Both the position numbers and the translations under genes were made by a program. A stretch of 64,000 nucleotides of DNA, taken from positions 4,464,001 to 4,528,000 of the forward strand of contig NC_064650.1 in the NCBI RefSeq assembly GCF_001723175.1, given 5' to 3'. Source of the DNA: Penicillium oxalicum (lineage: Eukaryota; Ascomycota; Eurotiomycetes; Eurotiales; Aspergillaceae). Below, piece by piece: positions 28,844 to 45,674 of this stretch; position 1 is the stretch's first letter, and each line of letters begins with the position of its first letter. The notes below the pieces were generated by a model, which saw only the letters and a list, made by a program, of their open reading frames with translations, had not been told where the DNA came from and did not search any database.

Positions 28844-29902
28844 TTAGTTGTGGTACTTGTTGTACATGTCAATGACCTTTTGAACCTCGCCCTTGGAACC
28901 GAGGAAGACACCACTCTTGTCGTGGATGGACTCGGGGCAAACTTCCATGAGGCGCTCCATGCGCGAGTTCACGGCGAGACCGCCTGCATTCTCAAAGACC
29001 ATGGCCATGGGGGCGCACTCGTACAGGATGCGCAGCTTACCCTTGGGGCTCTTCTTGTCAGCCGGGTAGGCAAAGATACCACCGTACAGCAAGGTGCGGT
29101 AGGCGTCAGCGACCATGGAGCCGATGTATCGAGCACTGTAGGGCTTGCCACCGTCTGCGGGTCGCTTCAGACTGTCAAAGTACGCATTGCACCAGTCATC
29201 CCAGTACATGCTGTTACCCTCGTTGACGGAGTAGATGGCGCGCGTTTCGGGAAGCTTCATGTTGGGATGAGTAAGGATGAACTCGCCTAGCGAGTTCTCG
29301 AGAGTGAAGCCGTTGACGCCACCGCCGCGCATGGTGATGACCAACTGCGCGGAAGCGCCGTACATGGTGAAGCCGGCGGCGACAAGTTCCGTTCCGGGGA
29401 GACGCAGAACCTCCGGGCCGACCTTCTTGCCCTCACCAACCGTCTCCTCGGGGAGCTGGAAGATACCGAAGATGGTGCCGACGGAGACACCCGCGTCGAG
29501 GTTGGAGGAGCCGTCGATGGGATCACAGACCACAGCGTACCGGGCATTGGGGTGCTCATCGAAGGCGATCACCTCCTCTTCTTCCTCGGAGACGACGAGG
29601 CGGCACTTGCCGGAGCCGCGCATGGCGGAGATGAAGATGTCATTGCCGATCACGTCGAGCTTCTTCTGGTCATCACCGGTTGTGTTGGAGGAACCGGCCA
29701 GGCCGGTCAGGTTGATCAGCGAAGCCCGACGGATGTAGTATGCGATGGACTTGAAGGAGAATTGCAGAGCGTGGCAGAGGAGTGTGAAGTCACCCGAGGC
29801 CTCGGGGTACTTGGTCTGCTCTTCCGTGAAGAAGCGGGTGAGCGTGACAATGTCCAAGTTCACGTTCTCGTTGCCGACGGCACCGTTTCCGTTGTTCGCC
29901 AT
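28844..29902 (-). CDS. acuG: fructose-1,6-bisphosphatase
   Basis: A single exon of 352 residues on the minus strand, from ATG at 29902 (CAACATGGC context) to the stop at 28844. The class I FBPase signature is complete: the metal-binding CDPIDGSSNLDAG at about 126-138, the upstream acidic loop VVSEEEEE (103-110), and NEGNSMYWD and Ala-Arg-Tyr-Ile-Gly-Ser substrate-site segments. The enzyme hydrolyses fructose 1,6-bisphosphate to fructose 6-phosphate, the committed step of gluconeogenesis, in the cytosol. In Aspergillus nidulans the gene is acuG, required for growth on acetate or other gluconeogenic carbon. The N-terminus is short and lacks a strong degradation signal that I can identify. CreA-type GTGGGG occurs at 29932-29937, in the leader or proximal promoter. 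Confidence 0.96.
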   Translation of the reverse strand: MANNGNGAVGNENVNLDIVTLTRFFTEEQTKYPEASGDFTLLCHALQFSFKSIAYYIRRASLINLTGLAGSSNTTGDDQKKLDVIGNDIFISAMRGSGKCRLVVSEEEEEVIAFDEHPNARYAVVCDPIDGSSNLDAGVSVGTIFGIFQLPEETVGEGKKVGPEVLRLPGTELVAAGFTMYGASAQLVITMRGGGVNGFTLENSLGEFILTHPNMKLPETRAIYSVNEGNSMYWDDWCNAYFDSLKRPADGGKPYSARYIGSMVADAYRTLLYGGIFAYPADKKSPKGKLRILYECAPMAMVFENAGGLAVNSRMERLMEVCPESIHDKSGVFLGSKGEVQKVIDMYNKYHN

Positions 29903-32106
29903 GTTGAGTAGTTTGCGCGTGGGCTTGTGTGGTGGGGAGGTAATAAGAAAAAAGGGATAGAGATAATGATACGGTGGATCTCACAAACAATGAGATTCTC
30001 AATTGTTAGAGATATGAGGAGAGGAATGATAGTCGAGAATGTCCAGTTGATCGTCGACAACACTGGTTATAGTGGGGTTGTATGCGGTTGTTATCGGAGC
30101 GGGTAGGTACAGTCACAGCTGCTTGTATAGCCTCGGCTCTGCGAACACGTCAGAAGAAAGGGTAATAGCCGTGGAGAAAAAGAAATTGGCACAAAATATT
30201 ATGGAAGAGGGGAAAAAAAACAGATGGAAGGTCTTCCTAACAGGCGCAATGGTTCATTCAAATACTGTTCGATCCTGCGCAGTATCGTGGCAAGCCGATC
30301 AAACAAGGCAAGTCGAGCGAGTGGACCGGAACCACGTCAGGGTTGAGTGTCAAACCGGGCAGCCAGAATCGCGCGCAGTTTCATAGTAGTACAGCATACT
30401 GTGATAGACAACTACTAGTACTTCTCACATCTATGATTGCATGTATGCAGTCTTTTTCTTTCCCGTTTCTTTTGTTTCTTCATTTCTTTCTGTCGTTTCT
30501 TCTCTGCTCGTAGCCCCCTGGTCATTTGTCATGGCGATGCGGCTGTTTGGTGTTGAATAAGAGGTAACGTAGGAGAACCTCTCTTGCCAGTCAGTTGACC
30601 CAGACACAGATCGGCTCTTCCACTCTGGACAAACTGGTTGTCACTGGTACGGCGAGTCGCCCCCATTGATCACCCGTAAAGTGACTTGGAGCTACTCCGC
30701 CGTGACTTCAGTGCGGGTCCTCCCTTTTCGTCATTCTTTCCCCGCGTGACCACAGAGCCCCTCAGTCCTGCTCCGGTTTTCTCCTTTGCCCGGCCTCCAA
30801 CTGGGCTGGTCTGCCGAGTGGCAGTTCCGTTGAATCTGAACAGCTGGACATGGTGACTCTCGCTCATCTTCTGTCCCATCATTGATCCTCTGGCTCTGGC
30901 CGTGGCCGGGTTTGCCCGTTATCGGACAGTTGCCGACGCTTTGCTCTTGGAGGGAACACCCCCTAGTCTCGACTAACGGGATGATCGATCCGACCAAAGA
31001 TCTCGTCCTCAATCTACGAAGGCCCTTCATGACCACGTACGACATCGGTGATTGCCTGTGACTACTGACAGCCGCGAAACATTCTCGAAAAGATGCTGAG
31101 GCTCTATATGCCTTCGGGACATCACTGGCTCATAATCTTCCGTATATCGGCTTCCTCGTAGATCGAGAAGTCAATTAGTCACCGTCCATGGCTGGGTCAG
31201 CTGCTCTATTTGGTCTCGAACTTTCCGAAGATCGATATTGGATGATCCCTGCCCCTGTCCCTGCCGAAGTCTCGGCCCTTCATGCCCCGAATTTTGGTTC
31301 CTGAACGCCTGAGATCGGAAGGTGGAGGATGGTGGCGGAGCCTACTAGTCTTGCGGAGTGAGTCTTTTTGCGGTTTCTCCAGTCAACGACGATTGGTTTC
31401 CTCACCTGTATGGGTATGTACAATTGGACATACATAGTAGCTCTCAATAGGCTCTGTTAATCTGAGCTTGGCGCGTGACTTTTGTGTAAATCATCCGATT
31501 CCCGCGGATCTCATCAATTCGCGCACCCTTCTCACGATCACCACACGGAAGAAAGAATTTCCTCCAGTCTGGCCTCGTGACGGCCCGCCGTTTTCATCCA
31601 ATTTGCTGTGGAATGTATTTTCCCCCAGTCTCCTCGGCGATTGACTCGATCAGCTGACCGTGGGTACGTCTAATGATCGAAATAGGAAGTTGATCCTGGT
31701 CGATGGAGTTTAGATGCTATTGATACCCCTACCTGCATATCGACCGAGGACAATTTAGTTCCGATGTAGCCTCCTCCCGGGTGAAATTCGTAGGAAAGTG
31801 GGACTGAGGTCGCTTCAGCATACAGTTTTGGTGTAGGTCGGAGTTTGGAGGCTGGTGCCCGCGCAAGGTATATATATCATTTCTGCCGTCTGCATTAACT
31901 TTATGTAGGCTGGACTTGAGGAGTCCTGATAAATCGACTCAATGAGATGGAATGACACTGAGAGTTGTCAGAATCCAGGCGCTGGAAGTGTTGATAGCCC
32001 CACTCGCTAGGTGAAAGTAGTACAGGTTTCCCAGCAACTGCAAGCTCATCTGCTGTTCTTGACTTGAGGTGGAATGTTCTGACCAGCCCAGAAAAAATCC
32101 CAGATC
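29903..32106. other. gene-free 2.2 kb upstream of fbp1
   Basis: Long upstream region of the fructose-bisphosphatase gene and the 3' side of the MARVEL gene. No open frame has a recognisable domain. Long promoters are common for carbon-regulated genes in these fungi. A TATATATA stretch occurs near 31871. Confidence 0.45.
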
Positions 32107-32883: not shown

Positions 32884-33929
32884 ATTTTTTTTGATGATCA
32901 CAATTAAAGTCAGTAGTCTCTTTCGAGTACCTTGATTTCTATGGTACCTCAATTATTAAGAAGTATCCAGGAGAACTCTTCCTGTTGGGCAGGGGGAGGA
33001 CAGGAAGTTCCATATGTACCTGGCTCCGAACCGTCGCCTCCCATAAAATGTATGATCTCACCACCTCTCTTTTGAAAAAATTGCCTTGGAACCAGCAGAA
33101 TCCATACATAGGCAAAGACTGGGTGGGACAAGAACCAGTGAGAATCAAGGTCATCAAGGAGATCTTTCTGTCTCTTCGTTGCATGGATGCAAACAAATTC
33201 CTGCCTAGGGATTTCACCTGCAAGATGGTCTCTCAGAAGCTTTGTCTGCACTACCTACAAGACACTCTAACTTACTCGCCCGACGGCAATCACGTTCCAC
33301 GAGGCATCCACAGTCTTGAAGCGCTTCACCCTTTATTGAAAATAGGGATCAGATTCAGGCAAAGATCAGTGCGAGCGTAATGTTGCAAAATGTTAACTAA
33401 TGTCCTGATTACGCGCCCATTCTCCAGTGAAGTGATGATTGCGGATTCGCGAAACAGCGGAGGTCACCGCATGAGAAGTTCTTATTGGCCGGATTAAGGA
33501 GAACTCGAGGTGTTCATCATGTCCAACGCGAACAAAAAGTCACCAGAACAAAATTTGGTCAGCCCAGTCAAATTTGTTCGCACAGAACTGACGTACATAT
33601 TTTGAGCATAATCAGGTTCTTGAGGCGGGGATTCTTCCCTACTCCCTAGATAATTCTGCAAATGGCGCAGAAGAGCGTGCCACACAGACTGGAGTTGAGA
33701 GCCTCAGGCGGCAGCGTTGGGACTGCCGGAGACGCTAGTCTGAGGAGGTTAGCGTAGCACGCGCCGGCACAACAAAGTTCCGTCGCTTCGGAGCTTGAAA
33801 AAGTTCGATTTGCATTTCGCACTTCCTCTTTCTTCAACAGTGCAATCTGCATGGCTTACAATGATTGAGCCAAAAGCACTTGCATTCTGATTATCTGAGG
33901 ATATCTCGATGCTGCTGAATTCAAAGCAC
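32884..33929. other. intergenic, MARVEL gene promoter side
   Basis: Contains the promoter of the minus-strand MARVEL gene and the upstream part of the snoRNA host transcript. A GTGATGA box C-like word at 33432 is not followed by a box D at a suitable distance. No coding feature is supported. Confidence 0.4.
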
Positions 33930-34037
33930 GTCGTATCGACTGTTCACTAACGAAATCCTCGTTACAGGAAATATTTCTTTGGTAAGCCTCCACACTGAAC
34001 ATTTTTTTCATCCTCTGCACCACACATCCGACCCTCC

Positions 34038-34128
34038 CCAAATGATGATACACATAACCAAATTCAAACTAGAGTCTTTGACCCTCTATGGGAATGAAAC
34101 TTTTGTTATTGCACGTCAGGCTGATCAC
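34038..34128 (+). ncRNA. box C/D snoRNA, snR78-position, with an snR72-type second guide
   Basis: Box C ATGATGA (34042-34048), box D CTGA (34121-34124) and a C'-like AATGAAA between. The guide before box D, TTGCACGTCAG (34109-34119), is complementary to LSU rRNA CTGACGTGCAA. The box D plus five rule places methylation on the A of CTGA, which I recognise as the yeast Am876 site (snR72). The upstream guide TCAAACTAGAGTC (34064-34076) is complementary over 13 nt to LSU GACTCTAGTTTGA, the segment holding yeast Um2417 and Um2421 (snR66/snR78). Yeast positions are recalled from memory. It occupies host intron 1. Confidence 0.82.
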
Positions 34129-34292
34129 CTTTCAATGATCCTCAAATTTTCATCGGAGTCGAGAGAGATATCCAGAAGCTAACCTGCCTTCTACCAGGAC
34201 TAACAGGAGCAACCTCTTCACAACTATGTGTTCCAATTATGGTAAGCTCTCACCCTTCTTTCACCTTTGCCCTACCTCACTTCACTTCACTT

Positions 34293-34360
34293 TGCATGAT
34301 GATCATTTTCGTATAATATACGCTGGAAATTACCGTCCAAGGTCTTCGGATCACTGACGA
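34293..34360 (+). ncRNA. box C/D snoRNA candidate, snR77-position
   Basis: Box C ATGATGA (34296-34302) and box D CTGA (34354-34357) are 51 nt apart in host intron 2. The box D-adjacent guide (ending CTTCGGATCA) does not match an rRNA segment I can recall. An internal AATTACCG (34328-34335) is complementary to SSU CGGTAATT, the segment containing yeast Um578, the snR77 target, but a one-base bulge interrupts further pairing and no good D' box follows. TAATATACG is also complementary to SSU CGTATATTA. The target is therefore uncertain. The position in the cluster is the main argument for snR77. Confidence 0.6.
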
Positions 34361-34527
34361 TAACTAATGGCTTGACTGATTTGCAACTCACACACTTCTC
34401 ATTTGCTACGTTGCCCATTCAATATGATTGAACTTTGGCTAACTATTCAAAGGTTCACCTAGATAATTGAGTCATCTGATTCACATGGTAAGCAGCGGCC
34501 GCTTCACTGATCCACCTCATCCCCTCG

Positions 34528-34633
34528 TCACGAAGATGAAACGGCACTGGGCTCCGACGGTTGTTTGACAATAGCCGGTCATGACGGAGACGCCCTTTTG
34601 CGGCAGGCCTAGAAAACCTCGCCCACTGAGACC
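34528..34633 (+). ncRNA. box C/D snoRNA candidate, snR76-type guide (LSU Cm2197)
   Basis: The box C is imperfect (AAGATGA, 34533-34539). The guide GCACTGGGC (34544-34552) is complementary to LSU GCCCAGTGC. A D'-like CCGA at 34554-34557 places the fifth upstream nucleotide opposite the C of CCCAG, the site I recognise as yeast Cm2197, guided by snR76. A CTGA at 34626-34629 is a candidate box D. It lies in host intron 3. The weak box C and unclear terminal stem lower confidence, but the guide geometry and the cluster order support it. Confidence 0.65.
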
Positions 34634-34784
34634 TATTCCAACGCTCACATTGGCTCCTCCTTGCTTCTTGCAACGAGTCACTAATCATGTCGAGCAGTGA
34701 TGGGAGAATCACCTGTTTCACTTATACTTGTAGACCACCATAAAGGTTAGTGGATCTTCTTGTTTTGTACTTGCGTTGTGTCTT

Positions 34785-34876
34785 TTTTCGTGATGATTAC
34801 CTAGATGACGAGTCTTATTCGAGTTATCGATGCAGACAACCTTTTTTTAATACCATTCATGCTTCTCTGAAAACAC
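34785..34876 (+). ncRNA. box C/D snoRNA, snR75-type (LSU Gm2288)
   Basis: Box C GTGATGA (34790-34796), box D CTGA (34867-34870) and a C'-like CGATGCA near 34828. The guide TAGATGACGAG (34802-34812) pairs over 11 nt with LSU CTCGTCATCTA, and the D' box CTTA (34814-34817) puts the fifth nucleotide on the G of CTCG, yeast Gm2288 (snR75). A second guide before box D, CCATTCATGC (34853-34862), is complementary to LSU GCATGAATGG just downstream in the same rRNA domain. A T-rich/A-rich terminal stem is possible. It occupies host intron 4. Confidence 0.85.
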
Positions 34877-35029
34877 TTCTTTCTGCCCCATTTGCATGAC
34901 ACCGTTTGACTTCAATCGCTAATGATTTGGTCAACAGTAATTCAGGATCGCTTCACTAATCAACTCCACTGCCACCCTCTCAACTTTCGGTGTATGTCAC
35001 ACCTTCTCCTATCCTTACCCATTATTATT

Positions 35030-35118
35030 TCTTTGTGATGAAACGACACAACAAAAGACAAGCATATGTCCAAGTCGGTTTTTTGCCGGCGAAGACGAGA
35101 AAAGTCATGACTGATCAG
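35030..35118 (+). ncRNA. box C/D snoRNA, snR74/U27-type (SSU Am28)
   Basis: Box C GTGATGA (35035-35041) and box D CTGA (35111-35114). The guide GACAAGCATATG (35057-35068) is complementary over 12 nt to SSU CATATGCTTGTC near the 5' end of 18S rRNA. The D' element CCAA (35070-35073) sits where human U27 has CTGA and sets the fifth position on the A of CATATG, the conserved Am28 (yeast) / Am27 (human) site. It occupies host intron 5. Confidence 0.85.
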
Positions 35119-35295
35119 TCATGTGGATTGCTTCGGCTTCGTTCACGATCCTTTTCAATCTCGATGCTGATGAGCATTCCAGAATAGGAGATGAGTGTCA
35201 CAGCCATCTGTGCCGCTGGACAAATCCTTACGCTTCTGTGAGTACCGTGTCTCTTTATCACCTTGTGACGCTGCGCCATCCTTTCCCCCTCCACA

Positions 35296-35390
35296 TTACA
35301 TGATGATTTACTATATTTTTATCACGACGGTCAACATAAGGATTTTAAATTGATGACCACCGCCTGTGACAGGGCATTAAATCTGATACC
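35296..35390 (+). ncRNA. box C/D snoRNA, snR73-type (LSU Cm2959)
   Basis: Box C ATGATGA (35300-35306), internal C' TTGATGA (35350-35356) and box D CTGA (35383-35386). The guide TCACGACGGTC (35322-35332) is complementary over 11 nt to LSU GACCGTCGTGA near the peptidyl-transferase region. The D'-like CATA (35335-35338) places the fifth nucleotide on the first C of GACCG, yeast Cm2959 (snR73). The box D guide (ending GGGCATTAAAT) has no target I can recall. It occupies host intron 6. Confidence 0.85.
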
Positions 35391-35500
35391 CCTTGTTATT
35401 TGAAGACTTTTTTCTTTTACGATCTGTCACTGGGTTTGTTGGGAGCAAGCGCTGACCAGAACCAGTTTATTAGAGTTTTCATGTGCGGAGTCGATTGCTT

Positions 35501-36474
35501 GGTGGCTGGCACTGCTTGGCTGCGGTCAACGATCCGGCCGAGTCGCTGCTATGCCGGCCTTGAAAGGGCCCCATTTAGCCTGCAGTAGTTCGAGAGCCAA
35601 TATCTAAAAATTCTACCATCCTTGCCCCAAAACCTCCTTCATCCTGCACTGTCTAGACCTTTTTCGTCTGTAGTCCACCCTCAGCCGTCGAGGCCTTCTA
35701 CCTTTCAGCTGCCGGGTAGCTGGCAAACCCAGCTCCCGCTCATTTGTTCCCCCTTCCGCTGGCACCACACCTTCAGATAGGGTTGATGTGCCCAGTTCCG
35801 CAAAGCGCAGGCGACCATGTTGCTGGCGGTGACGCTGGTTCGTCCAGGGACCCGATCGGCGCATGCGGGGGCAACCGTCTGAGCCTGTCAGCGGCGGCGA
35901 TAAGCGCCTATCACGAATCCGGGTGTGATGAGCCTCGCCCAGGTGCATGTACTCATCTCCGTTCGACATGCGTCCGATTCCTCGGCGATCGTCTACCACC
36001 CTGGCTGCGTTAGATGAGTCCACGAGTCCAGAAGCTCGATCCCGTTGTTCCAAATATAGATCGGCTTCTCCTCCCCACCCTGGGGTTTTTGTGCCGTTCA
36101 ATTTACTCGGCAATAATTGGCCCTGCCAGGGCCATGATGACTTCCCGGATATTGCCTTCAATCTTGCTAGGCGAAGTCAGACGAGGGGTCGATTGGTATT
36201 CTGTCTGGGGAACAGAGCTTCTCTTCTCCGTCGATTCGCTTTCTCAACCGCGTCTTTTGGACCCACGACGAACAGACCATGGCTGTGATCCGCCATTCGG
36301 CCTGACGAGTGCACAGGGCCCAATATGAATAGGTAAGAAGGACCGCAACGCTGCAAACCATGAGGTCGACCTCTGGGCTTGGCGAAATTCTCATTCACGC
36401 ATCCATCACAATCTGACTGACACACTGATTCCAAAAGCTGGGCGCAATCTAGCTATGTAGTTGACGATCGGCCG
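35501..36474. other. intergenic, upstream of the 1298-residue protein gene
   Basis: Probably the 3' end of the snoRNA host transcript and the promoter and leader of the following gene. Open frames on both strands (such as 35613-36161 minus) lack recognisable domains. Confidence 0.4.
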
Positions 36475-39400
36475 ATGAATTCAGACTATTCCGGCTGGCC
36501 GTCTTCTGTCCCACCGAGCAATCTTCCATCGCCTGGTCGCCGAGAGCATGGATTGCAGCCGCCGACACTCATGACCTCGTTGAACCCCGTGCAGTTTCAA
36601 CACGTATCAACTCCTCTGTCGTCCACATCGCTCTCGAGTCCGTTCACACAGGGCGCCTCTTCAGCGGTTGTGTCGCCGCACAACGCTAGGTCGGCCTCAT
36701 CTTCATCCATGGCATCGAGGCAGTTCAGCGTACCCTACAACCCGCAGGACTGGGGCCCTGTGGGGGGCAACAGCTCTCAGATGGGATATGCTCAGCAACC
36801 TGGCTTGCACCATGCCGCACAGCAGCAGCGAGGACAAACGGGTCGGTGACGCAAAAAGCTTGGAATTCAAGATGAAAGAGCCCCCTCCACTGACTCAAAC
36901 AAATCGTAGAATCACCACTTTCCCCGCCGCCTCCGCCATACTCACCTCCTCACAACCAGAGCTCGGCCCAAAGAGAGTCTTATGCTCAGGCCGGCCCAAG
37001 TGCTGCTGTTGTAGCCCCCCATTCTACAGTGACCCCGCCACATCAGCCATACACGGCAACCGGATATGATAACACCGCAGACTTTCATCGGCGTTCCGCT
37101 CCTCGCCCACGTCCCGTTTCGATGATCTATGGTAATGACGTAGAAATACACCGACAGTCGCTACCACCACCGCCACCTCCTCAGGGTCATCCGGGATCTC
37201 GTTCCAATTCTCAGTCTCGAACAAGTACGTATCAAAGCTCTCCGTACAACACCCCAGCCGGATCGCAATCCCGAGCGATATCAGCCTCGTACGAGCAGGC
37301 CCACCCATCTGCTTCACGAAGCACTGGATTCGGATACACCACAGATCAGTATGAGTCTCCGTCCAGACCACCAGCATCCCGACGGGCCGCCTCAGCCGGG
37401 GCTGTTGTCAGCAGCACGAGCTACCCAAGGCCCCCGAACCTTTCCCGAGGCACGTCGCCAGCGAACAGCTGGGAACCCGGAATGCCTCTGCCACCACCAC
37501 CCCCGGGTCCACCTCCCCTTGCAGGCTCCGCCAGCGTCAGCGGCTCATCGGAGTCTTCCTCTGCTCGAACGGTGCAAGGTCACGGGCGAACTCGCGCTCG
37601 ACCACCGCCATTGATGGGAACAGGCCTGGGCAGTATTCCACCGACCCCAGCTGACTGGATTGATGAGGAGTACATCAACCACCGGCCAACCAACGATCAG
37701 GAACCGCTTCACATTGACACCGCCAAGGCGATGCAGGCACACGAGGCAGGTGGTGAACTGGACTCTAACGGCCAGATACAGCAGTCTCAACGGACGCCCG
37801 GGAGTGGCGGCAGCGGCCTTTTCCGCAGCGCAGCAATTCGCGACCCCAGCGCAAAAGGAATTCGTGAAAGAAGGATTGAACGACGGAACCGTCAGAACCA
37901 GAATTTCGAAGAGATGAGTGCGGTGTCTGCTACAAGCGCAAACCCTTGGGCCGATGCCCTGGAGTCAATTGTGCCGTCAAATTTGGTGCTTCCCGAGTCG
38001 AAGAGACAGTCGGAACATTCACGCCAGCCATCCACCTCCAGATTCACCCCTCAAAGTACAAGGAGCATAGGCTCAGACAGCCAACCTGTGCCGTCAAGAT
38101 CGAGGGCATCTTCCGGGGGCCTGTTTTCAGATAGATCGTCCTCGTTCTCATCGCCCAAGCCGGACCCGGGCTCCGCGAGCCAGGCTGCGGCTTTTGCACC
38201 TACGCCACCATTCTCTCCCAACGCGGGACCTTCCTCTCAAAATAGTCAAAAAGAAGCCCAACTTGTACCACCCAAAGCACTCCCCACGCCACCTCTCAAC
38301 TCCGGCAAGGAGCCGCGGTCACGTTCTCGTGCAGCGTCTAAAGGACCAGAGGATCGCCCGATTTCGCATATACTGCATCTCCCTAACGAAGGCATTCCCG
38401 GGATCACGCCGTTGTCACCGAAACGATTTCCTGTACCACAGGGCAGCCAACGAGTTTCTTCCCAGTCGCTCACCAAACAAAACACGGAGCATATTCAAAA
38501 CACGATTCAGAGGCATCAGAAATTTATCGAAGATGAAGCCGCCGCAGTGGATGAGGCCGAGGCTTTGAAGATTTTCAATGATTTCATCATCTCCGAGTCG
38601 CAGATTCGCCGTCAAGTATATGCGGCGGTCTTTGATACAGCTTCTGCGCAGATTGCCGACGTTCGTTCCAAGCTCTTCGAGTTGCCACCCTGTCAACCCA
38701 GCTTGCCATCGGCAAAACCGGCAAAGCCAGCGCCAACGCTGGAAATACCGTCAAATAAACCCGTTCGTCCCGAGTCGGCTTGGTGGAATAACTATCAGCC
38801 TTGTTTGTCACCGATTGCCAGTCTCGGCATGAGCAACGATGAGATGAGCTCCCGCGGCAGGGCACCCAGTCGATGGTGGGAATCCAAGACCGGCTCTAGC
38901 AGCGACGGTGTGGCGCGGCGAATTCAACGATCTAAGCGGGAGTCCAAGTACATGGGGCTGCCAAGGGACAGTCTGCAATGGGACCAGGAGCGCACACCGT
39001 CTAGGCTTGACGATGCTGGAGCCAACTACTCAGGACAGCAGGTACCCTATGGTCCTGACGAGTATCCGCCGGAGAAGTCAGGCTGGCACGAAGACACTGC
39101 CGGCTACGCTAGGCCTGGCAGAAATGAACGCGCTCAATTTGTTTCAAGTCAAAGACTGGATATCTCACGCCTGGTGACACTTCCACCGCCGTATCCACGC
39201 CATTACCCCGCAGTCAATAACAGTCACCCGGATCTCGTTTCGTATCGAACGATTGTTCGATCAATCACAGATCTGTCAGAGATTAAAGCCACTCGAGCTC
39301 GTTACGCTTCGGACATGGAGAGGATGGCCCAGGAGTATCAGGGTCAAGTGACGGATGGACGTTCCCAATTCAAGGCCAATATTCAAAGGCAAATTCAAGA

Positions 39401-40439
39401 AGGCAGCATTAGCTTCGCCGAGGCAGCCGAGGCAGAAGCTGCGATGTTGGCGGACCAGGACGAAGGGGAACGAGACTTGGTCAAGCGGCAGCTCGACAGC
39501 TATCAAGATACTGTTATGAAACCGATGAATGCCATTCTCATGGACAGAATCAGTCGAGCTACCACCTGCATTGATGAGCTGAGCAGCCGGCTTTTTGACG
39601 ATGCACAGCACGAGACGCCCGACCAAACACAAGAGGAAGGTGACGAAAACCCAGAACTGCTGGAGAAGTTGACACAGCTCAAGTGGCTCTTTGAGGCGCG
39701 TGAGCAACTTCACCGAGAAGCATTTGATCTTGTCAAAGTTCGCGATGAAAAATACAAAGCGCTTGCTATCCTGCCCTATCAGCAGAGCAAAAACGAAGAA
39801 AAGACCCGGGAAACCAGAGAATTCTTTGCCAAGGACGCCATGGACCGACGCGTTCAGTATGAGACATCAGCCCTTGCCCGACTCGAATCCTTCTTGGATG
39901 TCATTGAGCAAAATGTGGTTCGGGGAGTCGAAATTCAGCTGTCCGCTTTCTGGGATATTGCACCATCCTTGTTGGCTCTCGTTCAACAAGTTCCTGAGAA
40001 CCTGCGCGGGTTCCAGGTTCAAATTCCCTCCGAAGAATACGCTGAGAATCCGAGCTATCACAAGCATCCTCTGCAGTATCTCTACTCGCTCCTGTCACAT
40101 GCCGAGAAGTCGAGCTACCAGTACATTGAATCTCAAACCAACCTTCTCTGTCTTCTCCATGAGGTGCGATCAGCAGTGATGCGTGCCAGCCGAAATCTGA
40201 CCGAGGCGGAGCTGATTTGGCAAGGCGAGCCAGAGGAGGCCGTGCGAGAGCAGATGCAGTTGGCTCGGGCTGACGAGGAGATTACGCTCACTTCAGACCT
40301 CAAGGAGAAGGTCGCCACCGTCGAGGGACAGTGGTCTGAGGCTCTCGGAAGCCAGATACAGGGGTTGCGCGAGCGGGTGAAGGAGCAGCTACTGGCGGAA
40401 GATGGCTGGGAGGATATGGAACAGTTGGAGCAGGAGTAG
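36475..40439 (+). CDS. large low-complexity/coiled-coil protein of unknown function
   Basis: Exon 1 is 36475-36841 and exon 2 is 36910-40439. The 68-nt intron has a CTGACTCAA branch word, and together they encode 1298 residues. Residues 1 to about 500 are Ser/Pro/Gln-rich and disordered, with polyproline tracts (SLPPPPPPQ, LPPPPPPGPPPL) that could bind SH3 or WW domains. From about 510 the protein becomes helical: an EDEAAAVDEAEALKIFNDF segment, then a long Glu/Gln/Arg-rich coiled coil (about 790-980, RYASDMERMAQEYQG onward), then a conserved-looking globular end (VRGVEIQLSAFWDIAPSLLA to NLLCLLHEVRSAVM). There are no transmembrane segments. I do not recognise the family. The layout suggests a cytoskeletal, polarity or scaffold protein, but that is speculation. 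Confidence 0.8.
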
Positions 40440-41644
40440 GAAGTTTTGATGGGCGCAGGTGTGTTTGAGAAGTTGCCTGACCCCGATGGATCTTTTTTCT
40501 GCCTCAGATGGTCAGCCTTCATTTACTATGATATCCCTCTTCGTTTGCCATAAATCGCACATGCATGCTTTTGCTATTCTTCGAAACCACCTCCCTTGGG
40601 AACATTTCCTTCAGAATCCCGACGCTTGAACGAGGATGTTTGTGTCTCATATCGCACCTCCATTTGATCACTAGACATTTACACTCTCGCGTCTTGATTC
40701 ACCAATTCTCGTGGTTACGCAAAGTCGGTACGTTTCCATAAATTACTTCTCGGACTAAGAGTAGAGCGAAGTACGCCGAACCTTTCTTGACATTAGAAAC
40801 GCAATGGAGTTGTTCTATGCAGATGAAGGTGCGGATGAGGGTGAATACATCTAGCCACGCTTGGTAACAGGTCATCATGAATCGATCACCGGTTTCCATG
40901 GCCATCCATTAGCATCCATCTTCGCTGGAAGCTGAAGGGATCTACCTAAAGATGGCTTGCACTGCTCAACTACAAACAGTATCCACCTGGCCAGCCCTAT
41001 CCACAATGTTCACGTGATCTTGTCTTCTAGAGTCTTCCGTCCCGAATCCGGTTCACTCAAATATCTGTTTTCCTTCCCTCATCACCTGTACCTTCTTTCA
41101 CCCTAATACCACTTTTCTTTTCCTTTGATATTTCCCCCCTAACTCAATCGCACAATTCTCTAAACTGTAAGTTGCCTGTGCCTCCCACTTTCACCACACA
41201 ATCTGCCTCGACAATGACTCGATTTCGGTCGAGAACCATTGTCTGCCCAATATGATGAGATGCAGCTGGCACCAGTCAGAGGGATGATGGATACGTCTGT
41301 CATCCACTTGCTGAGTAGCTTTACGGCCGGCAAATATACGCAGCTGGTCCTGAAAATTGTGGCTCCCAAATGAAAATGCTTCACCATTCACTATTGTCAT
41401 TATGGTGAGATCATGGCTAATGCGTTTTCGTCGAAAAGATCTAGAATTCAATCGGGAAGGAAGCTCGAAGCGCGCAACGCATTCGTGATCGTGTTGAAAG
41501 ATTTTGAGCCAGACCAGAAGAGAGAAAGAAAAAAAATATCACCCAAGGGAAAAAAATTTTGAAGACGGAAGATTTTCTTTTCGACACTCGCAACTTCCTC
41601 CAGTGCACACAGAAAATTTTCATTATCCATAGTTCGTCATCACC
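40440..41644. other. intergenic, aha1 promoter
   Basis: Contains the 3' region of the preceding gene and the promoter and leader of aha1. GAA/TTC-rich words occur near 41430-41600, where heat-shock elements might be expected for a co-chaperone, but I find no canonical inverted nGAAn repeat with correct spacing. Confidence 0.4.
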
Positions 41645-42954
41645 ATGGTTCTCCACAACCCTAACAACTGGCACTGGGTGAACAAGGACGCCTCTGGCTG
41701 GGCCAGGGAGTACCTTCAGGAGAAAGTGAGCACCATCAGCGCTGAGCAAGATGGAGTCTCCGCCAAAGTAGACAAGGTGACTTCCATGAATGGCGACGTA
41801 GATGTCAGCCAGCGCAAGGGCAAAGTCATTACCTTGTACGACGTCAAGCTGTCGCTAGAGTATTCAGGTTTGTAGTCCGCGAAAACTTCCTGTTTCCACG
41901 ACGGCAGCAGCTGAAACTTTTCGATAGGTAAGACCAAGGACGGTGAGGATGTCTCCGGTACCATCACCGTTCCTGAGGTAGCCCACGACACCGAGGAAGA
42001 TGAGTACGTCGTACGTTCCCTTAAATCGAAATAATCCCCCCTTGCGTTCGTGACTACAGCACATCGCCTTTGCGTCGGACGCTGAACACCTATTCCGGTC
42101 GACTAACACGAAACTTTGGATCTACCCTAGTTCGAAATCGATATTCACTCCGATGCCTCGTCCAAGCAGCCCGTGAAGGATCTCGTGCGCTCCAAGATTC
42201 TTCCTCAGCTTCGCAAGACCCTCGCCACCCTCACAGGTGCTCTCATCACCGAGCACGCCAAGGATCTTCAGCATGCTCCTGGCGTGAACCCCTCCGCTGG
42301 CTTCACTCCTGCCCCTCTGCACCCTCAGACCAGCAAGAAGGAGAATGTTTCATCTACCACTACCACCACCTCTACCACCGGTAAGGTGGCAGTCAACACC
42401 ACTACTGTGAATGCGTCTGACGAGTTCCGCACCACTGCGGAGGAGCTCTATGCCACTTTTACCGACCCCCAGCGCATCGCCGCCTTTACTCGAGGCGCGC
42501 CCCGCCAGTTCGATGGCGCCCAGCCGGGCGGCAAGTTTGCCATCTTTGACGGCAACGTGACTGGCGAGTACGTGAAGCTTGATGCGCCCAAGCAAATTGT
42601 TCAGAAGTGGCGCCTGGCCCAGTGGCCCGAAGGCCACTTCAGCACCCTTCAGATCAATCTGGATCAGAACGACGTCGACGGAGTTACCCAGATGCGTGTC
42701 GAATGGTCCGGTGTGCCCGTTGGTCAGGAAGACGTCACCAAGCAGAATTGGGAGCTGTACTATGTCCGCAGCATTAAGCAGACTTTTGGGTATGTCAAAA
42801 TTCCCCCTTCATCCAAGACGCAGGCACTTTGACCAATACGGAGTCCTCTGCTTTTCCATTCCAGATCCGAGTCGCCAAAGTCACTATTGCGAACACCGTT
42901 ACTGACGTTCATGCTTGTTCTTTTGCTGGGTATAGGTTTGGCACTATTCTCTGA
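41645..42954 (+). CDS. aha1: activator of Hsp90 ATPase, Aha1
   Basis: Four exons, 41645-41867, 41928-42010, 42131-42789 and 42936-42954, give 327 residues. Residues 1 to about 150 form the Aha1 N-terminal domain, starting MVLHNPNNWHWVNKDASGWA, and include the NPNNWHW segment that contacts the Hsp90 middle domain. After a Thr/Ser linker (about 170-190), residues about 192-327 are the AHSA1/START-like C-terminal domain (ASDEFRTTAEELYATFTDPQ, FDGNVTGEYVKL, QTFGFGTIL). The final exon contributes only the last six residues, and spliced and unspliced forms differ just there. The protein stimulates Hsp90 ATP hydrolysis in client folding in the cytosol. Confidence 0.95.
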
Positions 42955-43894: not shown

Positions 43895-45674
43895 TTACAA
43901 GGTGCGCTCCTCCATCTCAATACCATACTCTTCCTTCAGAGTCTTGAGCAAGGGAGCGCAAATCTCCATGGTCATGGGAGCAAGAACTCCCTTTTGGGAA
44001 ATAGTGCCGTCAAGAACCTGCTTGACCGCCACACCACAAGGGACACCAACCAGCTTGGCCATGGCGGAGTAACCGGCGGGATTACCGTACTCACAGAGGG
44101 TCGAGGTTCGTGTCTCCTTGGAGCCGTCCTTGTGCTCAATTTCAAATCTGTGCTGGAGCATGACCATGTCACGCTCGTCGGGGCCATATTGCATCTTCTT
44201 CTCCAAGGTGGCGCAGAGGGTGTCGAGGGCGTTACCACGAGGGGTGATGGTCTCGTCGGAGAAGAGACCGATCCAGCGAAGACCGGCCAGCAGGCGATCG
44301 CGCTCCTCGTTGTTGGGGAAGCTGGTCTTGCTCTGCACAGCCGTGATGAGGTCCTGCTCGGAGGAGGAAGCGGCGCCCAGCACCTTTGCGGTGGCCTCCT
44401 TCCAAGGGACCGCACTGTCGAAGACGGGGTTGGCATCGTCCTTGAGGAAGCCGATGTCAACGAGAACCTTGATCATCTCGGGGAAGCCCTGGTAACGCAG
44501 GGTGCCGCGGATGACGGTCTGGGCCTCGGGGATCTCGTAACGCTCACGGAATGGAGTAGAGTCGCGGTTGGGGTAGCCCACGAAAGCGAAGCCGGGGTAA
44601 ATGAAGTAGGGCTTGGCAGTGGCCATCAAATCAGGGCCATCGATGCTGACGACCTTGCCATCCTGGTAGATCTTGGCAGCGTTGCGGAGAGCAAGCAGCA
44701 CGCCGCGGCTGGACCAGGAGAACTTGTAGCCGAGGGGGTTGTTGGACGCCTCGGGGGCAGGGAGACCACCGCAGAAGGAAATGAAGCTGGTGATCTTTCC
44801 ACCGGCGGCGTGAACCTCGGAGATGGTCTTGACGGCGTCTGACGTGGATGATTAGCGTCTCGCTTTTCGATGGGCCCGCAAGAGGACAAGCACTTACAAA
44901 GATGATCAATACCAGGGTCTGGTTGAGACGCATGATTAGTATGGCGAACACAGGTGGAAGACTGTAGCAAAAACTTACCCAGTCCAATCTCGTTCATTAC
45001 TGTGATGCCGGCCTTCTTACACTCCTCGTTGAGCTCCTCCATGGCGGGGGAGACGTAAGAGGTGGTGACAACATTCTTCTTTGTGCGGATAGCAGACTTG
45101 ATGACTGTAGCGTGGAAAGTGTAGGGGATCAACGACACGACCAAGTCGGCCTGCTCCATCGCCTTGTCCAAAGCGGCGTCATCGCTCACATCCAGGGAGA
45201 TGGCTTTGGCGTTCTTGAAGTCGGAGGCGAGGGCCTTGGCGCTCTCGAGGGTACGGCAAGCTGATCAATGGGAACCAACAATCAGCAAAGTCTCCACGAA
45301 CCCAACTACAGGCAAGCGTATCGACACCACCGGCTTCTGGTCTTCAACGGCTGCCACTTCATCAAAGAAGTCGACAATGATTGTGCGGGACCAGGAAGAG
45401 AGCGATGGGTTGCCCCAAGATAAAATGACATACCGACAGTGACCTCCACATCAGCCTGACTCAGAACTTCGACCGTGGGCTTTGTGACTGTGGGGAAGTA
45501 ACAAAAAAAATTCAGTTAGTGACTGTTTACACTTAGACAATCCTGGGGAAAGCTCAGACGGCGGGGTAGCCAGGCTAGGCTCATGAATTGGTGCTGGAAT
45601 ATCTGGGGAATCGGGTACGTACCGAAGCCTGAGCCCAGCAGGAGAACCTTGGAACCAGCAATTGACTTGACCAT
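43895..45674 (-). CDS. lys9: saccharopine reductase (saccharopine dehydrogenase, NADP+, L-glutamate-forming)
   Basis: Five exons on the minus strand, 45674-45623, 45487-45434, 45260-44979, 44918-44898 and 44838-43895, give 450 residues, the usual length. Exon 4 is a 21-nt microexon coding the end of DPGIDHL, and it is required for frame and for that conserved motif. The N-terminal Rossmann fold shows KVLLLGSGFVTKPTVEVL, and ASDFKNAKAISLDVSDDA is also typical. The C-terminal substrate domain has SFISFCGGLPAPEASNNPLG and the LRYQGFPEM block. The enzyme condenses aminoadipate semialdehyde with glutamate to saccharopine in the fungal lysine pathway. A TGAGTCA CpcA site lies 85 bp upstream of the start, as expected for an amino-acid biosynthetic gene. 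Confidence 0.95.

Follow-up and report, generated by a model that had tools for sequence, protein, structure and literature searches.

Box C/D snoRNAs that lie in introns are matured by debranching, exonuclease trimming and assembly with fibrillarin. A set of these genes arranged as snR78-snR77-snR76-snR75-snR74-snR73-snR72 has been described as snoRNA gene cluster I (Luo et al., 2013; PMC3596301). According to that account, which includes Aspergillus fumigatus, A. flavus, A. nidulans, A. terreus and Neosartorya fischeri among its species, all members of the cluster are intronic in Euascomycetes and unspliced in Saccharomyces cerevisiae and its close relatives, the host RNAs are without long ORFs, and a fusion of snR78 with snR72 is reported for the Euascomycetes. 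The six homologues listed for Neurospora crassa are CD5 (snR78 and snR72), CD24 (snR77), CD12 (snR76), CD7 (snR75), CD21 (snR74) and CD31 (snR73) (Liu et al., 2009; PMC2780460). In the same work the Neurospora hosts are characterized as UHG-like, with one snoRNA per intron and RT-PCR support, and the clusters as conserved with yeast. We infer that the alternatively spliced cluster I reported there corresponds to the set considered here. Small-RNA cDNAs of Trichophyton rubrum map to one supercontig in the order SNORD52, snR77, snR76, snR75, snR74 and snR73 (PMC3890542). In S. cerevisiae, the snR78-snR72 polycistron is exonic and cut by Rnt1, and snR78 and snR72 are separate single-guide RNAs (PMC5033589, PMC2780460); the conservation of the cluster and the Rnt1 route in yeast are reviewed in PMC5033589.

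The locus analysed here lies in the window, a 64,000-nucleotide stretch of the Penicillium oxalicum genome, and is in all probability (about 0.96) the Penicillium copy of fungal snoRNA gene cluster I, consisting of one non-coding host with six introns and six methylation guides. We favour this reading because four gathering-level and two sub-threshold Rfam matches lie on one strand in yeast order, and because six intron models, guides at the expected rRNA sites and published relatives agree with it. With Euascomycete cluster I (PMC3596301) the locus shares the order of the snoRNAs, the presence of one snoRNA per intron, ORF-poor hosts and the fused snR78/72; exons are described as poorly conserved and devoid of long ORFs there, and the same holds here. 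As far as the published text description goes, the species is the only difference. The Neurospora homologues lie on chromosome VI and are intronic (PMC2780460), as predicted in P. oxalicum. Unlike this prediction, the Trichophyton RNAs were filed as intergenic or 5' UTR and not as intronic; about 1.8 kb separates the first from the second, and the snR74 homologue was given another target (PMC3890542). Gene order and guides are shared with the S. cerevisiae polycistron, from which the P. oxalicum cluster differs in that it has six RNAs and is predicted to be intronic. Mammalian UHG and gas5 hosts are alike in having non-coding exons and one C/D snoRNA per intron (PMC2780460, PMC3596301), but carry a different snoRNA set. 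Among the related papers listed, no title or abstract opening names the P. oxalicum locus.

Box C/D units and their order

Boxes and Rfam matches define six box C/D units, all on the forward strand, between positions 34042 and 35386. Box D reads CTGA in every unit (34121, 34376, 34626, 34867, 35111 and 35383), and an exact RTGATGA box C is present in five, as ATGATGA in units 1, 2 and 6 (34042, 34296 and 35300) and as GTGATGA in units 4 and 5 (34790 and 35035); in unit 3 box C is AAGATGA (34533), one change away from the consensus. The C-to-D span is 80-97 nt. Judged by eye on the unfolded sequence, the flanks of the units carry no obvious long closing stem.

A search of the whole window with Rfam covariance models returned five gathering-level matches, four of which are units of the cluster (E 0.0014 to 2e-19 in 64 kb). 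These are unit 3 (34529-34631, +), an snR76-like C/D snoRNA matching Afu_513 with 98.7 bits (gathering 48); unit 4 (34788-34872, +), snR75 with 85.3 bits (gathering 40); unit 2 (34292-34381, +), an snR77-like C/D snoRNA matching Afu_300 with 78.1 bits (gathering 40); and unit 6 (35296-35388, +), snR73 with 42.7 bits (gathering 37). Unit 3 also matches the Rfam snR76 model, with 28.2 bits and below gathering. The two other units scored below threshold. A lax search of positions 33400-36000 gave 14 matches with E up to 5; unit 1 (34038-34128, +), the snR78/snR72 double-guide C/D snoRNA with D' TTGA at 34078 and D CTGA at 34121, matched snR78 over 34038-34111 with 24.0 bits (gathering 48, E 1.1), and unit 5 (35030-35117, +), an snR74/U27-like C/D snoRNA recognized by this match and its 18S guide, matched SNORD27 over 35030-35095 with 25.8 bits (gathering 52, E 0.2). 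The Rfam snR77 model is not among the 14 matches, so that the designation of unit 2 as snR77-like is based on order and guide. In the genome assembly (30.8 Mb, 17 contigs), the models Afu_513 (unit 3) and snR75 (unit 4) each gave a single match.

By score alone, units 1 and 5 would be dismissed as noise anywhere else in the genome; they are counted as snoRNAs because of the conserved order and the right guides. Their low scores are the one point in favour of regarding the units as chance C/D-like motifs in intergenic DNA, a proposal that is refuted for units 2, 3, 4 and 6 by the gathering-level matches and that, given the E values of these four and the conserved order and strand, has a negligible probability for the locus. 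With units 1 and 5 placed by sub-threshold matches together with their guides, the order on the strand is snR78-77-76-75-74-73(-72). Both the six C/D units on one strand and their colinearity with the yeast snR78-72 array, as claimed in the preliminary description, are therefore borne out by boxes, Rfam matches, order and guides.

Predicted introns and predicted non-coding host

Each of the six units sits between a donor and a branch and acceptor of its own predicted intron, and the predicted introns measure 216, 211, 210, 192, 191 and 228 nt. All are on the forward strand. Intron 1 (33982-34197) has the donor GTAAGC, the branch sequence GCTAAC at 34178 and the acceptor CAG, and is followed by a modelled non-coding exon of 44 nt (34198-34241). 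Intron 2 (34242-34452), with GTAAGC, GCTAAC at 34438 and AAG, has an alternative acceptor TAG at 34462 and precedes an exon of 35 nt (34453-34487). Intron 3 (34488-34697; GTAAGC, ACTAAT at 34680, CAG) and intron 4 (34746-34937; GTTAGT, GCTAAT at 34918, CAG) are separated by an exon of 48 nt (34698-34745), and an exon of 54 nt (34938-34991) leads to intron 5 (34992-35182; GTATGT, GCTGAT at 35166, CAG). The last internal exon, of 55 nt (35183-35237), is followed by intron 6 (35238-35465; GTGAGT, GCTGAC at 35451, CAG at 35465), for which CAG at 35459 and TAG at 35473 are alternatives. The branch-like sequence is thus CTAAC or CTAAT in introns 1-4 and CTGAT or CTGAC in introns 5 and 6. The geometry is nearly constant, with 38-58 nt from donor to unit start, 50-67 nt from unit end to branch and 11-16 nt from branch to acceptor.

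A compound pattern of donor, box C, CTGA, branch site and AG finds exactly six donors on the forward strand of the window and has no match on the reverse strand; in 40 first-order Markov sequences it occurs with a mean of 0.05 and a maximum of 1 per 64 kb strand, figures that serve as a rate check only, since the pattern was composed after inspection of the six units. The modelled spliced RNA, with its ends assumed, is 953 nt long and its longest ATG ORF is 62 aa; a protein-coding host was rejected on this basis. The non-coding exons of 35-55 nt and the separate intron for every unit, both put forward in the preliminary description, are what these models contain.

The intron signals could instead be relics, and real snoRNAs could be released by an endonuclease from an unspliced precursor. 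The yeast array is indeed processed in this way (PMC5033589), but donor, branch and acceptor have been kept at regular spacing in all six units of P. oxalicum. Published work on fungi also argues against relics: 83 of 323 predicted fungal snoRNA introns were verified by ESTs or RT-PCR (Luo et al., PMC3596301), and RT-PCR was used to check the hosts of the Neurospora clusters (PMC2780460). We therefore regard release from an unspliced precursor as very improbable, and retain the intronic host. The preliminary description had set the endonuclease-processed yeast array against introns in this locus; that contrast fits the prediction, but it is not new (PMC3596301).

Compatible with an intronic host is a variant in which the proportions of the snoRNAs are controlled by alternative splicing, with omission of certain exons. 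In Neurospora cluster I the skipped part is reported to be exon 2, alone or with exon 3 (PMC2780460), minor exon skipping occurs in Candida parapsilosis (PMC5033589), and introns 2 and 6 of the present locus have alternative acceptors; the commonest pattern in C. parapsilosis, however, is individual splicing of each intron (PMC5033589). Such skipping is conceivable in P. oxalicum, with the odds somewhat against it.

If the published relatives are a guide, the locus would be transcribed as one RNA polymerase II transcript with non-coding exons and six introns, and each intron would be spliced, debranched and trimmed by exonucleases to one protein-protected box C/D snoRNA core. The snoRNAs would then assemble with fibrillarin and its partners and 2'-O-methylate 18S and 25S rRNA, presumably at the yeast target sites of snR78 and snR72 (both by unit 1), snR77, snR76, snR75, snR74 and snR73.

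Guide elements and their predicted rRNA targets

No 5.8S rRNA was found in the P. oxalicum assembly among the 39 candidates scored of 917, and two conserved rRNA patterns had no match in it; the rDNA seems to have been left out of the assembly. As the species' own rDNA was not found, guides were tested on yeast rRNA stretches reconstructed as a stand-in and on one distant LSU piece. In the main test, on the reconstructed stretches, the longest Watson-Crick run of each unit was compared with those of 2000 shuffled units. The second target, L007, comprises 1750 bases of real LSU from a distant eukaryote, and 1000 shuffles were used per unit. As a control of the reconstruction, L007 was found to share 13 exact blocks of at least 12 bases with the main 25S stretch, which make up 308 of the 961 bases of that stretch. 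Of seven scans of IMG/VR with rRNA patterns, one gave a 3' LSU end and six had no match. A conserved eukaryotic LSU pattern matches seven pieces catalogued as bacterial MAGs or as viral contigs (L003-L009), six of them stray pieces in MAGs; the three that were checked with Rfam all hold eukaryotic LSU, that is, contamination.

We take the yeast sites of the guides to be A28 and U578 in 18S and A876, C2197, G2288, U2421 and C2959 in 25S, unit 4 covering G2288 with its D' guide. The 25S sites 2197, 2288 and 2421 are spaced by 91 and 133, and so are the positions 2159, 2250 and 2383 tabulated for Neurospora (PMC2780460). Numbering varies between papers, and the yeast snR78 site is Um2414 in PMC3511168.

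Guide elements of varying strength are present in all six units and number seven in all; the guides announced in the preliminary description are there, but it had counted five units. On the reconstructed rRNA, the runs of units 1, 3, 4, 5 and 6 adjoin D or D' and fall on the site expected from the yeast homologue. In seven of seven elements the base singled out by the fifth-nucleotide rule, the fifth upstream of its box, pairs with the expected letter on reconstructed yeast sites, as the preliminary description had stated for this rule; this check is partly circular for units 2-6, whose D' boxes are degenerate (CCAA, CCGA, CTTA, CCAA and CATA, respectively), and good boxes are found only for the two elements of unit 1. 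For units 2, 3 and 4, a D' box of CUGA type stands at these columns in the consensus of the Rfam alignments. The fifth-base letters are also those of the Neurospora table, namely Um2383, Am856, 18S-Um575, Cm2159, Gm2250, 18S-Am28 and Cm2917 (PMC2780460).

Unit 1 carries two guides. Its D' element is the snR78 guide, TCAAACTAGAGTC followed by TTTGA, and its D element is the snR72 guide, TTGCACGTCAG followed by GCTGA; with reconstructed yeast 25S they pair over 13 bp on the D' side (1 of 2000 shuffles) and 11 bp on the D side. The list in the preliminary description ended at snR73 and so missed the snR72 function, which is that of the D-side guide of unit 1, and with it the cluster set is functionally complete. 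Neurospora has its counterpart in CD5, likewise a double guide, directed to Um2383 by its D' element and to Am856 by its D element (PMC2780460). In the genome, the snR72 guide with CTGA directly after it is present a single time, and one further site, L012, differs by one mismatch; L012 drew no match from Rfam at E values up to 0.5 and was rejected as a second snR72 guide.

Among the other units, unit 5 has a 13 bp guide to the reconstructed 5' end of 18S (2 of 2000 shuffles reach this length), unit 4 has runs of 11 bp (60/2000) and 10 bp, and unit 6 has a run of 11 bp (71/2000). The 9 bp run of unit 3 is equalled by 644 of 2000 shuffles, and the case for this unit is therefore one of homology. 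On L007, unit 6 forms a run of 11 bp where it is expected (equalled by 45 of 1000 shuffles) and is the only unit that beats its shuffles. Unit 1 pairs over 9 bp in the expected position and over another 9 bp elsewhere (415/1000), unit 4 over 10 bp by its D-side element (138/1000), and the best run of unit 3, of 9 bp, is at another site (306/1000). Units 2 and 5 give nothing (1000/1000 and 998/1000), as is expected of 18S guides. Unit 6 apart, the guides thus find weak support on real sequence.

By hand, and on reconstructed 18S, the guide next to D' of unit 2 pairs around U578 as 8 + 5 bp. This guide (34314-34335, +) has one extra A relative to the complement of reconstructed 18S, an A that is common to the Afu_300 consensus, whereas Neurospora CD24 is given as pairing 13/0 with 18S (PMC2780460). 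The longest run of unit 2, of 11 bp (60/2000), pairs with 18S 594-604 and lies beside the guide, not in the guide itself. CD24 is also assigned a U5 target (PMC2780460), which was not reproduced for unit 2: a U5 target of its D side was rejected, as the three best runs fell outside the genome's U5 match. Near the 3' end of unit 3 (34606-34618, +), GGCCTAGAAAACC belongs to the consensus of both Afu_513 and snR76, and none of the three best runs of the unit on reconstructed yeast rRNA involves it. It is possible, if rather doubtful, that the guides have undergone lineage-specific changes, with unit 2 relying on the 11 bp 18S pairing in view of its extra A and GGCCTAGAAAACC of unit 3 serving as an accessory rRNA contact or for an additional target. 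On the D side of unit 4 (34853-34862, +), CCATTCATGC forms a 10 bp duplex with an LSU segment some 20 nt downstream from the guide site at G2288, both on reconstructed yeast 25S and on L007. Since this duplex comes no closer to box D than the fifth base, the element may serve as an accessory contact rather than as a second guide.

Significance and genomic neighbourhood

The system is already known and is ordinary for a filamentous ascomycete. The intronic C/D cluster, the non-coding host and the colinearity of the preliminary interpretation stand; its omission of snR72 has been made good above, and its contrast with yeast had already been published. P. oxalicum provides one more species for the case that the yeast polycistron, which lacks introns, is derived from an intronic array. 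The cluster opens no new question. The locus can now be annotated, its six non-coding genes having been picked out correctly from raw sequence.

Downstream of the cluster lies an ORF (36894-40439) with 99% full-length identity to PDE_08478 of P. oxalicum 114-2, and the next named species among the matches listed reaches 83%. The window also contains a fructose-1,6-bisphosphatase gene (28844-29980, -) and a gene with a saccharopine dehydrogenase C-terminal domain (43895-44851, -). A further C/D snoRNA, Rfam Afu_190 (41250-41354, +; 35.7 bits, gathering 35), is flanked by a GTAAGT at 41167 and the branch-like GGCTAATG at 41415, and lies upstream of the ATG at 41645 of a gene for an AHA1-like Hsp90 co-chaperone (Aha1_N; AHSA1). 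Because of this position between a donor and a branch-like sequence, upstream of the ATG, it is probably located in a 5' UTR intron of the AHA1-like gene.
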